A DNA stretch of 61,281 bases from Rhodospirillaceae bacterium (lineage in GTDB: Bacteria; Pseudomonadota; Alphaproteobacteria; MPNO01; UBA2964): assembly GCA_002709075.1 (NCBI GenBank), contig PAPV01000004.1:316822-378102 (forward strand), given 5' to 3'. Below the pieces are notes generated by a model, which ran no database searches, had not been told where the DNA came from, and was given only the letters and a program-made list of their open reading frames with translations. This document shows, piece after piece, positions 4,167 to 12,416 of the stretch. How positions within the stretch are numbered: the first letter of the stretch is position 1; the number at the start of each line of letters is the position of its first letter. The position numbers were made by a program, and so were the translations under genes.

Positions 4167-5660
4167 ATGAATAAAAGATTCTTTGTTCTTTTTGGAAATC
4201 AATTATTTAATCCCAAAATACTGAAAGCTCTGAATTGCAACCATGTATTTATGGCGGAAGATTATGAGCTTTGTACCTACCAAAAACATCATAAGCTGAA
4301 GATTTATTTATTTCTTTGTTCAATGAGAGAGTATAGGGACGAGCTGACTAAATGTGGAATTCGGGTGACATACTTTAAGTTAGAGGATAGGTCGAACAAA
4401 TCAAATTATCTTGATTTCCTATGTGAGTTCTTAAAAAAAAATGAATTGAAACAGATTAATTTTTTCGAGATTGAGGACAAATTTCTAGAAAATAGAATTA
4501 TTAAACAAAACGCAATTGAAGATTTTGATATTCAAATTCATCGTTCGCCAATGTTTTTGTTCTCCAGAGAAGAATTTTCCTCATTTCACAAGGGTAAATC
4601 TACTTTTAGATTATCTAGCTTTTATAAGTATGGAAGGAAAAAATTTAAGGTCTTAGTAAACTCAAATCTTAATCCCATCGGGGACAAATGGTCTTTTGAT
4701 GAAGAAAATAGGAAGAAGATTCCCAACGGTTTAACGGTGCCAAAAATCAGCCGTTACGAAATGTCAAAACACCAAGAAGATGTTATAAACATTATAAATA
4801 AAAAGTTTTCAGATCACCCAGGAACATTGGCTAATATTTGGTTTCCAGTTAAGCGCAAACAAGTGTTTTTGGCATTAGATCGTTTTTTGGATGAAAGACT
4901 TGTGAAATTTGGTATTTATGAAGATGCTGTTCAAAAAGGTCGGAATTTTTTATTTCATAGCTGCATCAGCCCGTTCCTAAATATTGGTTTAATAACGCCC
5001 GACGAAGTAATCAAAAGGGTTTTAGAACATTATAACAAAGGGGGCATTCCAATAAATTCAATCGAGGGGTATATACGCCAAATTCTCGGCTGGCGGGAGT
5101 TTATAAGAGGAATTTATCATGTTAGAGGGGAGGAGCAAGAAAAACGTAATTTTTGGAAGCATAAACGCGATCTCTGCGACAGTTGGTACAAGGGTGATAC
5201 AGGAATAGAACCATTAGATGATTGTATAAAATTAGCAATCGCTGATGGGTATAACCATCATATACCGCGACTTATGATAATCAGTAATATAATGACTTTG
5301 TGTGAAATTGACCCTAAAACCATTTATAAATGGTTTATGGAGTTGTATATCGATTCGTCTGACTGGGTAATGGTGCCTAATGTATATGGTATGGCGACCT
5401 ACGCTGACGGCGGACTTATGTCTACCAAACCATATACGTGCAGTTCCAATTACATCCTTAAAATGAGTAATTACAGCAAAGGGGAGTGGTGCGATGTGAT
5501 GGATGGACTCTACTGGCGTTTCATCGAAAAACACAAAAGTTTTTATAAATCCAATCCGCGGCTCGCATTTCAGTCACGAATGCTAGAGAAGATGAAACCT
5601 GAGCGAAAGAACAGAATATTCAATAAAGCCGAAGCTTTTTTATTGCAACACACATGTTAA
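4167..5660 (+). CDS. FeS-BCP/PhrB-family photolyase lacking the Fe-S cysteines
   Basis: A 497-residue protein of the deoxyribodipyrimidine photolyase-related (FeS-BCP, bacterial 6-4 photolyase) family. It begins FVLFGNQLF like the family N-terminus and carries the paired histidines HH (364-365) in the HHIPRLM segment needed for 6-4 repair, then DWVMVPNVYGMATYADGG and the KPY segment of the FAD region. The family's four cluster-binding cysteines (PhrB C350, C438, C441, C454) align with P349, S437, E440 and a short deletion, so the 4Fe-4S cluster should be absent. The ATG at 4167 is preferred to the GTG at 4140 because it gives the conserved N-terminus. It lies 354 bp upstream of the MAA operon. 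Role: FAD-dependent, light-driven DNA repair or photoreception. Confidence 0.8.
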   Translation: MNKRFFVLFGNQLFNPKILKALNCNHVFMAEDYELCTYQKHHKLKIYLFLCSMREYRDELTKCGIRVTYFKLEDRSNKSNYLDFLCEFLKKNELKQINFFEIEDKFLENRIIKQNAIEDFDIQIHRSPMFLFSREEFSSFHKGKSTFRLSSFYKYGRKKFKVLVNSNLNPIGDKWSFDEENRKKIPNGLTVPKISRYEMSKHQEDVINIINKKFSDHPGTLANIWFPVKRKQVFLALDRFLDERLVKFGIYEDAVQKGRNFLFHSCISPFLNIGLITPDEVIKRVLEHYNKGGIPINSIEGYIRQILGWREFIRGIYHVRGEEQEKRNFWKHKRDLCDSWYKGDTGIEPLDDCIKLAIADGYNHHIPRLMIISNIMTLCEIDPKTIYKWFMELYIDSSDWVMVPNVYGMATYADGGLMSTKPYTCSSNYILKMSNYSKGEWCDVMDGLYWRFIEKHKSFYKSNPRLAFQSRMLEKMKPERKNRIFNKAEAFLLQHTC

Positions 5661-6020: not shown

Positions 6021-7754
6021 ATGACAGAAATAGAAAAGCTAATTGCTGCCTTAAATAAAATAGCAGCAGAATTAAATCAACAACACCCCGTAGAAGAGCA
6101 GATCCCGAGAGTACTGAGGTCCAAGTATTTCAGGGAGTTGATTGTATCGTTAATCAATCACCCAATGTATGATCCTAAAACTGAATTGGAATTCCAAAAA
6201 CAAGGTAAGGTAGCCGCATTACCAATTTTACGCAAAATGCGTGGATGTTTCTCACAACCTACAGTATTGTGTTTTAGTTCATTTGCTGAAATTGCGGAAA
6301 TTTTAATCCCTTCTTTGGCACCAATTTTCAGGAGCTTTCTTAACAAGCTACAAAAAAGTAATCAAGCAGGAGTTACTGTAAAGTCACTTTTATGCCTGGA
6401 TCGAGACGCAGATTTTTATCAAAACTTAACTGTGGATCTCGAGAAGAATAATCCGCACGCTTTATTCCCAACTTCACCCTACAGGGAAAGTGAGGGTTCT
6501 GTTGTCAGTTCCAGTGACGATCACACCATCGAGGCTGTAATGACACACAGGAGTTTCACTTCAATACGAATCGAAGAGAATGTCCTTGAAACTTCTAACC
6601 CAATTTTAAGCGATGTTTATTCTCCTCTCGGTCGGTGCGTGTGTTTAGTGGATAAAAATGTCGAAGAAAGCTATGGCTCAAAAATCGATAAATATTTCTC
6701 TGATAACGGTATAATCCTGCATAAGTTTGTTTATCGCGCAATGGAAATAGATAAAACACTCGCCTCAGTTGAAAAGATGTTGCACGAATTTAAAAACTTA
6801 AGTGTGGCTAGGCACGAACCGGTTTTAATAATCGGTGGCGGGGTACTTGCAGATATCGGCGGTTTAGCCTGTGCGCTTTTTAATCGGAATACTCCATACA
6901 TAATGGTTGGGTCTTCAATTGTATCTGCTATCGATGCGGGTCCGTCTCCTCGAACTTGTTGTGACGGATTCGGATACAAAAATCTGACGGGAGCATATCA
7001 TGCACCCATTCTCACCATAACCGACAAGTCATTTTTTAAAACATTACGGAAGGGTTGGCTTCGGCACGGTGTCGCGGAAATTATTAAAATGGCTATCGTC
7101 AAAGATGCAAAGTTATTTGAGCAGCTTGAAAAAATTGGAATCGATTTGATTGAAACTAAGTTTGGAACGGTTAGCCATCCAAATAGCTCTGCTATTAATG
7201 ATGCGTCTAGAGAGATACTGGCTGGAGCAATGCGTAGTTATGTTGAATCAGAATATGGAAATCTCTACGAAACTCATCAATGCAGACCGCATGCTTATGG
7301 ACATACATGGTCCCCTGGATTTGAATTGCAATCCGGATTGTTGCATGGACATGCTGTTTCAATAGGTATGGGTTTTGGTGCCTTTCTGAGCTGGAAACGA
7401 GATTGGTTGGGTTTATCTGATCTTAATCGCATTTTGAACCTGATAACTGACTACGAGTTAAGTTTATGGCATAAAATACTGCTCGATGAGGAACTTATCT
7501 GGAATGCTCAAACGAGCATTACAGATAAAAGAGGAGGTAATCTTGCAGCTCCGGTGCCGAAAGGCTGCATTGGTGAATGTGGATACATTAACGAGTTGAC
7601 ACGTACAGAACTCCGCAACAACATTTTAGAATATCAAAGTTTTTGCAATAAATTTGCGCGGAATGGACATGGAATAGAACCACTTTGTAGCGATGTGGGA
7701 TTGGAAAATCCCGCTGATGTGCTTGATATTAATAATCCAACCAAAGCAGCTTGA
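6021..7754 (+). CDS. mysA: Sugar phosphate cyclase, MAA type (demethyl-4-deoxygadusol synthase-like) with N-terminal extension
   Basis: Predicted to cyclise sedoheptulose 7-phosphate with NAD+ and a divalent metal, giving the 4-deoxygadusol core of mycosporines. The protein has 577 residues, against about 410 in the cyanobacterial enzyme. The cyclase part starts near residue 160-175 and shows GGGVLADIGG (from 272), the GVAEIIKM metal Glu (E353), HAYGHTWSP (H428) and LLHGHAV (H442), plus APVPKG near the end. YGHTWSP separates it from dehydroquinate synthase (FGHTFGHA). The loop normally reading DASVAIKVAVNH is DAGPSPRTCCDG here, reminiscent of eukaryotic homologues as I remember them. The first ~160 residues, helical with no recognised motif, are an unexplained domain. 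mysB starts 25 nt later. Alternative: 2-epi-5-epi-valiolone synthase. Confidence 0.82.
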   Translation: MTEIEKLIAALNKIAAELNQQHPVEEQIPRVLRSKYFRELIVSLINHPMYDPKTELEFQKQGKVAALPILRKMRGCFSQPTVLCFSSFAEIAEILIPSLAPIFRSFLNKLQKSNQAGVTVKSLLCLDRDADFYQNLTVDLEKNNPHALFPTSPYRESEGSVVSSSDDHTIEAVMTHRSFTSIRIEENVLETSNPILSDVYSPLGRCVCLVDKNVEESYGSKIDKYFSDNGIILHKFVYRAMEIDKTLASVEKMLHEFKNLSVARHEPVLIIGGGVLADIGGLACALFNRNTPYIMVGSSIVSAIDAGPSPRTCCDGFGYKNLTGAYHAPILTITDKSFFKTLRKGWLRHGVAEIIKMAIVKDAKLFEQLEKIGIDLIETKFGTVSHPNSSAINDASREILAGAMRSYVESEYGNLYETHQCRPHAYGHTWSPGFELQSGLLHGHAVSIGMGFGAFLSWKRDWLGLSDLNRILNLITDYELSLWHKILLDEELIWNAQTSITDKRGGNLAAPVPKGCIGECGYINELTRTELRNNILEYQSFCNKFARNGHGIEPLCSDVGLENPADVLDINNPTKAA

Positions 7755-7779: not shown

Positions 7780-8592
7780 ATGCATCAGCTTAGAGCCGTC
7801 ACACCTTTGTCAATTCTGGCTAAGAAATTAGACTGTCTGGCAATCGATTGCGAGAGGGGTAATTTTGATGTGCAATTCAGAAATGAACTTGAAACCTGTC
7901 GTAATTTGGCGTCTGGCCTCGATCCCTATCTGGAAATGTTGTCGACACCAGAAGATCCATGTTTAAAACGCTTGTCTGTGGAAACAAAGAAATTTGATTG
8001 GAGTGACAGTGATGACCCTGCCCTTGTTAGAGGTTTGGAGGCAGAGATGTTATCAGGTCATGTTGAGGGGCAATTTTTAAAAATGTTGGTTGAAGTGTCA
8101 GGAGCTAAAAAAATTCTAGAGGTAGGGGTTTTCTCAGGATATTCAGCTGTTGCCATGGCAAAAGGTCTGCCCGAAGACGGTAAAATAGTGGCTTGCGAAT
8201 TGGATGCGCGCGCAGCTCGGTTTGCAAAGGAACAATTTCTTAAAAATGCCCTGGATAATAAAGTTGATTTGCGGGTTGGTCCTGCTATCAAAACCCTCCG
8301 GGAACTCGCTGAACACGGAATGAAATTTGATTTAATGTTCGTTGATGCGGATAAACAGAATTATGAAAATTATGTAAAATTAGCATTAGATGAGAATCTA
8401 CTCTCCATTGGAGGTATTTTTGTAATTGATAATACTCTTTTGCAGGGTGAAGTATATTTAGAAGAAGGCGAAAAAAGTACGCCGGGCAAAGCCATATCCT
8501 CTTTTAATAAATATCTTGCTAGAGAAAATCGAGTAGAACAAGTAATAATTCCACTTCGAGATGGTGTAACATTTGCTAAGCGAACCACTTGA
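7780..8592 (+). CDS. mysB: Mycosporine O-methyltransferase
   Basis: Predicted SAM-dependent methylation of demethyl-4-deoxygadusol to 4-deoxygadusol. The 270-residue protein is a class I, metal-dependent (CCoAOMT-like) methyltransferase: LASGLDPYLE and EMLSGHVEGQFLKM near the N-terminus match cyanobacterial MysB, the SAM loop is ILEVGVFSGYSAVAMA (112-127), and metal ligands fit D189/D191 (VDADKQNY) and D217-N218 (VIDNTLLQGEVY). The ATG at 7780 with an upstream AAGG is chosen; the frame is open to 7693, but that stretch overlaps mysA and is not family-like. Its 3' end overlaps mysC by 20 nt. Similarity to MysB extends along the whole length. Confidence 0.88.
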   Translation: MHQLRAVTPLSILAKKLDCLAIDCERGNFDVQFRNELETCRNLASGLDPYLEMLSTPEDPCLKRLSVETKKFDWSDSDDPALVRGLEAEMLSGHVEGQFLKMLVEVSGAKKILEVGVFSGYSAVAMAKGLPEDGKIVACELDARAARFAKEQFLKNALDNKVDLRVGPAIKTLRELAEHGMKFDLMFVDADKQNYENYVKLALDENLLSIGGIFVIDNTLLQGEVYLEEGEKSTPGKAISSFNKYLARENRVEQVIIPLRDGVTFAKRTT

Positions 8593-9961
8593 TATAAATA
8601 GACCTGCAGTGGATATTCAATCAAAACCTATCAAATTAAAATCGCAGGGTAGGATAACGAGTGTTTTTGTGATTATTTTGTTAGCCAGCGCTTTGCCATT
8701 AAGTTTATTAATTATGGCTATAGTTTTTTTAAAATCTCAACTTATAAAAAGAGTAGAGAGGAAAACAATAAGAAGCGAAAGAATTCTTTTATCTGGTGGC
8801 AAGATGACCAAAGCACTTCAACTCGCTCGTTTATTCTCGCGCGCTGGACACACTGTGATACTAGCAGAAACTGAAAAAAATAGTGCTTCAGGACATGCGT
8901 ATTCTAATTGCGTAAAAAAGTTTTATAGTCTTCCATCTAAGGAGCAGGGTTTCGACGCTTATTGTGATAAAATGGAAGAGATAATTAGTGCCGAGTCGAT
9001 AGATATATTTGTACCTGTCGCCAGTCCAACATCCGTGTTTCAGGATGCGAAATTAAAAACAATGACAAAATCGGATTGCACCTTCTTCTGCTTTGACGAA
9101 AAAAATCTAGACATTCTAGATAATAAATACGCAGTTTGTAAAACGGCTAGTAAAATCGGCCTGTCAGCCCCTGAGGTGCATTATATTTGTGATCGCACTG
9201 AACTCTGTAATCCAGATTTATATTCTAAAGAAAAAAAATACATTCTCAAATGTTTGTCATACGATCCTGTTGGACGATTAAATCGTCCCCTTTTGCCATT
9301 CGCCGGCCAAAGTAAGTATTTTGAAGAACTTACTATTTCGAAAGAACGCCCCTGGATTTTGCAAGAGTTTATCGAGGGTAGGGAATATTGTACCCATTCT
9401 ACGGTGCAGAATGGAAAAGTTTTGCTTCATTGTTGCTGTTACTCATCAGATTTTCAGTTGCGCTACCATCATGTTGACCACCCCCCCATTTTCGAATGGG
9501 TTGTTTCTTTTGTCCGAGAACTAAATCTGACTGGGCAGATCTCTTTTGATTTTATTGAGAATGAGGCGGGCGTCATTTTTCCTATTGAGTGCAATCCACG
9601 AACTCATTCCGCAATTACATGTTTTTACAATTTTCCTAGAGCTGTTGAGGCCTTTCTACCAACACAACTTTTAACCGATGAAAAGGTTATCATGCCTCGG
9701 TCTAATGCCAAAGAAACTTATTGGCTATATTATGAATTATGGAAATTATTCACTTCGAAATCTTTGAGCAAGATATTAAGTCAGGTGCAACTTTTTCTGA
9801 GGGGAAAGGAAGCTATTTTAGATGAGAAAGATCTTCTTCCATTTTTAATGGTATATCACTGGCAAATTCCAGCGCTATTAATGAAAGCAGTATGGGCTGG
9901 AAAACCATGGGTTCGTATAGATTTTAATATTGGAAAATTAGTAGAAGCAGGGGGTGATTGA
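8573..9961 (+). CDS. mysC: ATP-grasp mycosporine-glycine synthase
   Basis: Predicted to activate 4-deoxygadusol with ATP and join glycine, giving mycosporine-glycine. The 462-residue length equals cyanobacterial MysC (about 458). A hydrophobic N-terminal segment (residues 29-54) is kept as in MysC, suggesting membrane association. Then come LLSGGKMTKALQLAR (GG at 75-76), the ATP-grasp segments KYILKCLSYDPVGRLN, WILQEFIEGREYCTHSTV and LTGQISFDFIENE, and ECNPRTHSAIT (E339, N341) for Mg-ATP. The C-terminus VRIDFNIGKLVEAGGD is near-identical to the family end. The start is a TTG at 8573 inside mysB (GTG at 8609 possible); the first ATG would remove most of the N-terminal hydrophobic segment. The stop overlaps mysD by 4 nt (TTGA). 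Confidence 0.9.
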   Translation: MLSEPLDINRPAVDIQSKPIKLKSQGRITSVFVIILLASALPLSLLIMAIVFLKSQLIKRVERKTIRSERILLSGGKMTKALQLARLFSRAGHTVILAETEKNSASGHAYSNCVKKFYSLPSKEQGFDAYCDKMEEIISAESIDIFVPVASPTSVFQDAKLKTMTKSDCTFFCFDEKNLDILDNKYAVCKTASKIGLSAPEVHYICDRTELCNPDLYSKEKKYILKCLSYDPVGRLNRPLLPFAGQSKYFEELTISKERPWILQEFIEGREYCTHSTVQNGKVLLHCCCYSSDFQLRYHHVDHPPIFEWVVSFVRELNLTGQISFDFIENEAGVIFPIECNPRTHSAITCFYNFPRAVEAFLPTQLLTDEKVIMPRSNAKETYWLYYELWKLFTSKSLSKILSQVQLFLRGKEAILDEKDLLPFLMVYHWQIPALLMKAVWAGKPWVRIDFNIGKLVEAGGD

Positions 9962-10977
9962 AGTTGGCTGGTTACAGCAAGCATGTATATCATCTTTGCG
10001 GATCACCCACATCGCAGTTTTTTTTTGATTTATCTATGATTTATGCGAGCAATATACTTTTACCTAGTGGATGGAAACAAACCTTTATTGTAGTTTACCC
10101 AAATGGTATGTGGCGAACTGGCAGATCACTTCAATCGTTAGAAGAACCAAGAGCCGCTCAATTGTGTCTCAGTGATGTTTCTACCAACTCGCTTTTAGTC
10201 CCTCATATGTTTTGTCGAGCCGGAATGTCATTTTACCGATCCCTTTTCGAAGAAATCTTAGGGTTGAGACTTGTTGGCTCTAAAGGAAACATATTAAGTT
10301 TAACCGCGGATAAAGCTCGAACGAGAGCACTGGTTGAAGGCAGTGGTATCAAGGTTGCAAAGGGCGAGCTATTAGCAGCCGGTAAAAATACATCAATTCC
10401 CCTACCATGTATCGTGAAACCAAACAATGCAGATAACTCGGAGGGCCTTTCATTAGTAAAGGTTGAAACCCAATTGAATGAGGCAATTGAATCTGCCCGA
10501 AAAGTCGACCCAAGTGTACTAGTTGAGGAATTTATTCCCGGCAGAGAAATACGGGTTGCCATTCTTGAATTAGATGGAAAATTATATATGCCGCCGATCA
10601 TAGAATACTCGGTTTCTCCCAAATATCCCATCCGTAAAATAGTAGACAAGCTTGATGTAGACGGTCTTGGTACACCAAAGTCTCAATCGACCAAGTCCTC
10701 AATAGCCATGTTATGTCCAGCGAAATTAGATAAAAAACTTCATGCAACGGTGGAACAAACAGCCAAACGGGCTCATAAAATTATAGGGGCTCGGCATTTT
10801 TCCCTTTTTGATTTTCGTATTGACGCCCGTTCTAACCACCCAGTTTTTTTAGAGGCAGGTTTGTATTGGTCTTTCAGTTCAGCAAGTATGATTACAAAAA
10901 TGCTTGTGACGACAGAGAGACCAGTGGTAGATATTGTGGATAAAATCTGGACCCAAGCTTTATTTGAAGATCCTTAA
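9958..10977 (+). CDS. mysD: D-Ala-D-Ala ligase-like ATP-grasp enzyme, amino acid-mycosporine-glycine ligase
   Basis: Predicted to condense mycosporine-glycine with a second amino acid (serine gives shinorine, threonine porphyra-334). The 339-residue protein has the MysD pattern: HLCGSPTSQFFFDLS near the N-terminus, MFCRAGMSFYRSLFE, KPNNADNSEG (K154), VEEFIPGREIRVAI (about 189-202), RHFSLFDFRID and the closing EAGLYWSF motif (E299). The start is TTG at 9958, overlapping the mysC stop; a TTG at 9964 is equally good. The first ATG (codon 27) would cut into the first conserved strand. Tight overlap implies translational coupling. Which amino acid is used cannot be read from the sequence. Confidence 0.85.
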   Translation: MKLAGYSKHVYHLCGSPTSQFFFDLSMIYASNILLPSGWKQTFIVVYPNGMWRTGRSLQSLEEPRAAQLCLSDVSTNSLLVPHMFCRAGMSFYRSLFEEILGLRLVGSKGNILSLTADKARTRALVEGSGIKVAKGELLAAGKNTSIPLPCIVKPNNADNSEGLSLVKVETQLNEAIESARKVDPSVLVEEFIPGREIRVAILELDGKLYMPPIIEYSVSPKYPIRKIVDKLDVDGLGTPKSQSTKSSIAMLCPAKLDKKLHATVEQTAKRAHKIIGARHFSLFDFRIDARSNHPVFLEAGLYWSFSSASMITKMLVTTERPVVDIVDKIWTQALFEDP

Positions 10978-11041
10978 ATAAATCTTGAGAAATACAAACA
11001 TCGTTGGAACTATAACATATTAATCATGACACCCATTTTAG

Positions 11042-11767
11042 ATGCAGGAGATTAATTTGACCCTAAAAAGCAAGAAACCTGATGGAAACCATGAAATCAA
11101 GGGCGTATCGGCACTATTCTTAGGTTCAATTGGCACAATAGCAGAAACGTCAGTGCTCCAGCTAGAGGCATTCAATAGAGCGTTTGTGAATTTTAATATC
11201 GGTTGGCGTTGGTCTGAAGAAGAATATACACAGATGTTAAAACAGGCTGGGGGTAGACGAAGGATAAAAGATTATGCTGCAAAAAAAAATCTTGTGCTTT
11301 CAGAGGCGGAAATTATAGAAATTCATCAGTGTAAGACGGATATATTTTCTGAATTACTTGTCACAAGAGAGATCAAGGCAAGGGAAGGCGTCCCGGAGAT
11401 AATAAAAAACTGCGCCGAAAAAAATATCAAGCTTGGCTGGGTCACCACTACTTCGGATCAAAATGTTAAAGCGATTAAGGACGCTACGAGCAATCAAATT
11501 GACTTTTCACTCTTCTCAACAATCATCACCGAGGATGATGTAAAAAATCCCAAACCTGCACCTGATAGTTATTTAAAGGCACTTCAAAAATTAGGTATCG
11601 ACGCTGGTGAAGCGGTTGCTGTCGAGGATAGTAATAGTGGGGTTTCTTCAGCTAAATCTGCGTCAGTCATATGTATTGCAGTGCCAGGTGAGTATGGATA
11701 TCTTCAAGATTTTACTTATGCAGACATCAGTCTTTCTGATTTGCACTGTTTAACTCTATCACATTGA
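11042..11767 (+). CDS. CbbY-like HAD protein without the catalytic aspartates
   Basis: A 241-residue HAD protein of the CbbY type: QLEAFNRAFVNFNIGWRW, a GWVTTTSDQN motif II, NPKPAPDSYLKAL with the motif III Lys, and AVEDSNSGVSSAKSA as motif IV. Motif I, normally DxDGT with the nucleophilic Asp, reads ALFLGSIGT (24-32): both aspartates are gone and one residue is added. A normal phosphoaspartate mechanism is therefore impossible, although the rest of the fold is intact. It starts 65 nt after mysD on the same strand and may be co-transcribed. It could be a non-catalytic partner, a binder of a sugar phosphate, or an enzyme with another mechanism. I have a vague, unverified memory of GSIGT-type HAD relatives elsewhere. 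Confidence 0.75.
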   Translation: MQEINLTLKSKKPDGNHEIKGVSALFLGSIGTIAETSVLQLEAFNRAFVNFNIGWRWSEEEYTQMLKQAGGRRRIKDYAAKKNLVLSEAEIIEIHQCKTDIFSELLVTREIKAREGVPEIIKNCAEKNIKLGWVTTTSDQNVKAIKDATSNQIDFSLFSTIITEDDVKNPKPAPDSYLKALQKLGIDAGEAVAVEDSNSGVSSAKSASVICIAVPGEYGYLQDFTYADISLSDLHCLTLSH

Positions 11768-11873
11768 ACTGATAGAGAGGGATAAGTACTCTTTTTATTC
11801 AAAAGTATTTAGAATATTTATTTAATAAATTGCATTGTTACTATCCAGAGTCTTCTAAGTTCAGGAGTAAACT

Positions 11874-12416
11874 ATGAAAATAAAAAACATTTCTCTTAAA
11901 GTATCGTTTGAAACTATTTCAAATCAATTTGGAAAATGGGTACCCTTTATTGCAGAAAAAGAGTTTTTTCTTAAAAAATTGGTGGTTTTAATTTCGCTGT
12001 TTTTATCAGGGATTGTCGCTGTACCTTCAGCGGCTAACGCTGGCAAATATGATTTTAGGATTAAGATTATTAATAACACAACTGCTGATTTGGAAATCCA
12101 GATGATTAAATACACCGGATACACCCTTAATCCGCTCTATATAGACGTTGAAGCTTTAATTGCTGCGGTAAATAAAGGATCTTCCCAGACAGCCCCTAAA
12201 ATATCCGTGGGTGAAAGTCTTCTTTATGATCCCCCTGATGACTCTAGGCGAAAACGCAAGCGCCGTTTTGAATTGTTATACAGGTGTACGGCAAAACATT
12301 CGTCGACTGAAAACATGAGACAATACTTCCCTAGGAATAAAAAGTGGTACAAGCGCGCTCATGCTGTAAACAACAACAATCGGTATATTTTGAAAGTTAA
12401 AAACAGTGATTGTTGA
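11874..12416 (+). CDS. Hypothetical exported protein
   Basis: 180 residues, start supported by CAGGAGT 7 nt upstream. An unusually long polar N-region (about 30 residues) precedes a hydrophobic stretch (KKLVVLISLFLSGIVAVP) and a likely signal peptidase site ANA-GK near residue 56. The mature ~125 residues contain KIINNTTADLEIQMIKYTGY, a very basic SRRKRKRRFE patch, and two cysteines (one near the end). The INNTTADLEIQ start looks like a beta-sandwich, but no family is recognised. A strong hairpin follows at 12506. Confidence 0.6.
   Translation: MKIKNISLKVSFETISNQFGKWVPFIAEKEFFLKKLVVLISLFLSGIVAVPSAANAGKYDFRIKIINNTTADLEIQMIKYTGYTLNPLYIDVEALIAAVNKGSSQTAPKISVGESLLYDPPDDSRRKRKRRFELLYRCTAKHSSTENMRQYFPRNKKWYKRAHAVNNNNRYILKVKNSDC

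Follow-up and report, generated by a model that had tools for sequence, protein, structure and literature searches.

The gene at 11042-11767 (+ strand) encodes a CbbY-like HAD protein in which both catalytic aspartates of motif I have been replaced, and it belongs to a family, here called GSIGT after the altered motif, that shares this change. Because the replacement is fixed family-wide and under strong selection, the GSIGT proteins are a real family of 'dead' phosphatases, large, mostly marine and uncharacterised, and not a collection of decayed genes. The window, meaning the whole stretch of 61,281 nucleotides of Rhodospirillaceae bacterium DNA that was analysed, carries the gene directly downstream of mysA (DHQ-synthase-like sugar phosphate cyclase, 6021-7754), mysB (O-methyltransferase, 7780-8592, start inferred in an ORF that opens at 7693), mysC (ATP-grasp, 8573-9961) and mysD (D-Ala-D-Ala-ligase-like, 9958-10977), all on the same + strand. 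The HAD gene begins after a gap of 64 nt from mysD, and a search of 10900-11900 of the window, which covers the interval between these two genes, gave no terminator-like site. Mycosporine operons of alphaproteobacteria may thus have a fifth gene, for which this one is a candidate. An AGGAG at 11046-11050 sits 6 nt upstream of a TTG at 11057, and for this reason the TTG may be the true start of the HAD gene instead. A photolyase-related gene (DPRP 1.6e-56, with FAD_binding_7) lies directly upstream of mysA at 4167-5660 (+ strand), and together with the mys operon it could possibly form a UV-protection island.

The 241 aa product was assigned from its open reading frame, Pfam, a PDB match and a structural model. 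Pfam HAD_2 matched at 1.1e-26 with 94.4 bits (cut-off 23.8), and the closest solved relative by sequence was RsCbbY from Rhodobacter sphaeroides (PDB 4uar-4uau, 1.8e-33). CbbY is a xylulose-1,5-bisphosphatase (XuBP phosphatase). Structure prediction agreed with the sequence matches on a HAD_2/CbbY-like fold, which has a Rossmann-like core and a helical cap: an AlphaFold2 model built from 42 GSIGT family members reached a pLDDT of 94.3, and its top PDB match using Foldseek was apo-CbbY (4uar, TM 0.79/0.85). Further top matches were, according to their entry titles, CbbY D10N with bound xylulose-1,5-bisphosphate (4uau, 4uat). CbbY and the window protein have in common motifs II-IV, the W/Y/GG.R cap residues and Glu35, while the window protein lacks both motif I aspartates and carries E37S and H40Q. 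Unlike CbbY, this GSIGT copy has no Calvin-cycle genes beside it.

Classical HAD phosphatase chemistry requires an aspartate nucleophile and an aspartate acid/base, the two aspartates of the DxD in motif I. Pairwise alignment of the motif I region gave LFLGSIGTIAETS for the window protein and ILFDVDGTLAETE for RsCbbY. LGSIGT thus stands in place of the normal FDVDGT, with G28 and I30 at the positions of the catalytic aspartates (GSIGT for DxDGT, residues 28-32, 11123-11137, + strand). The rest of the active site was retained, with Thr137 of motif II (11450-11452), Lys171 of motif III (11552-11554) and the acidic pair Glu195-Asp196 of motif IV (11624-11629) all encoded in place on the + strand. 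The original prediction had described a CbbY-like protein with an LGSIGT motif I and intact motifs II-IV and had excluded the normal phosphatase mechanism from the loss of both aspartates, and both statements held.

The motif I replacement is more general than was first thought. CbbY-like matches were found in 41 of 385 alphaproteobacterial genomes, and seven of the 30 loci fetched (the window and L014-L019) carried a GSIGT-type motif I, the rest reading DVDGT apart from two in which the aligned part starts downstream of the motif. A DNA pattern fixing only G-x-[IVM]-G and flanking residues matched all GSIGT loci and none of the normal CbbY genes when tried on the fetched loci. Scanning the genome contigs with this pattern yielded at least 120 loci, all CbbY-like with [FLIV]G[SA][IV]G. 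The taxa among the loci listed were SAR11, SAR116, Rhodobacterales, PS1, some gammaproteobacteria and a MAG of the cyanobacterium Chamaesiphon. Together with the window, G025 (a genome of the window's order) and the other fetched copies, the scan loci fell into 46 clusters at 70% identity. A copy was also found on a Roseobacter litoralis plasmid in the plasmid search, 2 of 386 cyanobacterial genomes carried the motif, and a single-sequence scan of viral contigs returned no relatives. The Chamaesiphon MAG (G412) holds two close GSIGT copies on separate contigs (C123:29621-30304 and C196:5994-6677), a weaker CbbY-like match and, elsewhere, mysA-mysB. Sequencing error or chance was ruled out as the source of LGSIGT, as the change recurs in all of the at least 120 loci.

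Substitution around motif I was concerted across the family (D28G, V29S/A, D30I, E37S and H40Q). G28, E35, N45, R74, K171 and E195 were invariant in the 46 cluster representatives, and T137, D196, K98 and R114 were each present in 44-45 of them (T137 and D196 in 44). Ser29 was rejected as a substitute nucleophile, being Ala in some members. An intermediate-looking variant was seen in Tropicimonas (L078:6900-7592), where the motif reads GSVGTLAEMAEVH, the CbbY His is kept and the Ser is absent. In a tree built without the motif I columns the GSIGT proteins, including that of the window with its [FLIV]G[SA][IV]G near the N-terminus, separated from 16 intact CbbY proteins with support of 100/98; as these columns were excluded, the clade is not produced by the motif itself. 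Selection was purifying: median dN/dS (NG86) was 0.04-0.25 in each of the 12 clusters with usable pairs, values that come from clusters other than the window's, as the nearest relative of the window protein is 43.7% identical. Family conservation and this purifying selection also ruled out a pseudogene or frameshift. Because the motif is family-wide, the family forms one clade and dN/dS is low, the loss of the motif I aspartates is old, concerted and kept by selection.

The order mysABCD-HAD, with the HAD gene directly after mysD, was observed in three divergent clusters, namely the window, G025 (motif I MFGAIGVIAETS) and L107 (single cell AG-365-F14). L107 was located through the motif itself, which leaves G025 as the independent case. 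Association with the mys operon is read here from this conserved gene order. Pairwise identity was 40-44% among the three HAD proteins and 44-49% among their MysD proteins. The three HADs formed a single clade (100/99) nested inside the GSIGT family and share clade-specific residues including W133 and G54. We read this as a single recruitment of a GSIGT protein to a mys operon. The original prediction had proposed selection for another role, and the fixation of GSIGT across the 46 clusters, the low dN/dS and the constant place of the mys-linked clade after mysD all support it.

In the sampled genomes mysA is rare, occurring in 2 of 27 of the order, 1 of 385 of the class and 1 of 398 of the phylum. 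No further mysA was found in the sampled Pseudomonadota, and the plasmid search for mysA gave a single match, in Nostoc. In the window's order, the two mysA genomes of the sample each have the GSIGT gene. In the other direction, 3 of 40 genomes with the GSIGT family had a mysA-like match (E<=1e-40): L107 with its linked cluster, Chamaesiphon with an unlinked mysA-mysB, and Roseibium with a 32% match and no mysC. Nearly all GSIGT members outside the three clusters do not adjoin mys genes. Both GSIGT-carrying cyanobacteria have mysC, as compared to 19 of 146 overall, with the mysC of one (G861) about 330 kb away; two cases are too few to be more than suggestive. The link between GSIGT and mys genes is real but narrow. 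The survey of homologues called for at the outset thus found the GSIGT-type motif conserved throughout, and it found mys co-occurrence in three clusters and not in most members. Homologues that share the motif but lack a link to mys genes, named by the original prediction as grounds for refutation, thus make up most of the family, and a function defined by the MysA precursor is not supported.

Many SAR11-type copies lie downstream of a solute-binding protein and two permeases of a sugar-type ABC transporter, and some lie upstream of an SDR and a SnoaL-like gene. In a SUP05 locus (L061:138-7955) the GSIGT HAD gene is found among two SnoaL-like genes, SDR, LacI, cupin, MetE-like, alpha/beta hydrolase and RraA genes, and many of these neighbours recur around SAR11 copies. 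From their gene content the SAR11 and SUP05 neighbourhoods look like loci for the uptake and catabolism of some compound. That these catabolic loci are tied to mycosporines is only an idea. In a Cognatishimia MAG (L102:3361-5755) the GSIGT HAD gene adjoins a 33% relative of the photolyase-like protein seen in the window; another photolyase-like ORF lies close by, and the locus has no mys genes. A photolyase gene was ruled out as a general GSIGT partner, as L102 was the only such case among the 120 loci listed.

Our preferred reading, held tentatively, is that the protein is a HAD pseudophosphatase that would bind, but not hydrolyse, a small sugar-like ligand that is phosphorylated or anionic, acting as a metabolite-binding accessory. 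The CbbY-derived protein would retain the sugar-phosphate cleft while being unable to form the phospho-aspartyl intermediate, and it could serve as a sensor, buffer or chaperone for the bound metabolite. We infer the binding from the invariant Lys171, Arg74 and Glu195, from Thr137 and Asp196, and from the D10N structures; as CbbY D10N holds xylulose-1,5-bisphosphate, loss of the nucleophile does not stop ligand binding in this fold. Asp28 is also a Mg2+ ligand, and its loss may make phosphate binding weaker. A pure scaffold is disfavoured because such cleft residues would be expected to disappear. For the copy in the mys operon, this would mean a pathway metabolite that carries phosphate, either sedoheptulose 7-phosphate or one of the phosphorylated intermediates expected of MysC/MysD; sensing of sedoheptulose phosphate is a guess. 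As most family members do not adjoin mys genes, the ligand of the family may be generic rather than mys-specific.

An altered enzyme would account just as well for the charged residues that are conserved. The main rival, which we consider doubtful, is that the CbbY cleft has been turned to a new, non-phosphatase reaction (for example that of an isomerase, epimerase or lyase) through Glu35, Lys98, Lys171, Arg74, Glu195, Asp196 and the new Gln40 and Ser37. Five positions in the motif I region switched together and were then fixed, the charged cleft residues are near-invariant, and the neighbours of many SAR11 and SAR116 copies, an ABC transporter together with SDR, SnoaL, RraA or MetE-like genes, form an arrangement resembling a catabolic route. 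However, Ser29 offers no nucleophile given its replacement by Ala in some members, and we know of no HAD-fold enzyme that lacks the Asp nucleophile. A broader reading, in which GSIGT proteins are a large and ecologically abundant family of nucleophile-less HADs with their own chemistry or ligand and one unrecognised class of small molecule, perhaps mycosporines or related cyclitols, might link a few mys operons with the uptake/catabolic operons of SAR11 and SAR116, seems to us quite improbable. A phosphatase with an alternative nucleophile could still use the phosphate-binding Thr and Lys, but motif I holds neither Asp nor a conserved substitute, and we give this explanation almost no weight.

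The majority of copies without mys linkage, together with the distant mysC in G861, would suit a pseudophosphatase with a general role in stress or sugar metabolism and an incidental place beside mys genes. This is rather unlikely, as gene order is kept in three clusters despite the divergence of their HAD proteins, the linked genes form one clade, and within the order each of the two mysA genomes sampled has the gene. The fixed position directly 3' of mysD and the residues specific to the mys clade could instead point to a protein-protein partner, such as a regulatory or stabilising subunit of an operon enzyme (MysD here). Yet the invariant residues line the cleft and not a surface patch, and the neighbours elsewhere are different proteins, which makes such a partner unlikely.

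In a GATOR-GC analysis, the mycosporine clusters of Actinomycetota, Pseudomonadota and Bacillota were reported to have HAD and TauD/TfdA genes as conserved members (PMC11888242). The HAD gene of that study resembles the window gene in co-occurring with mys genes; its MAA section makes no mention of motif I, a missing nucleophile or the catalytic competence of the HAD (PMC11888242). Bacterial HADs that lack the nucleophile seem to have received little study, as no paper on a bacterial family of such catalytically dead proteins was found in the open-licence full-text literature. The GSIGT family is common in abundant ocean bacteria and strongly selected, and with three compact mys operons and ligand-bound CbbY structures at hand it provides a simple test case for the reuse of a phosphatase fold once its chemistry has been lost.
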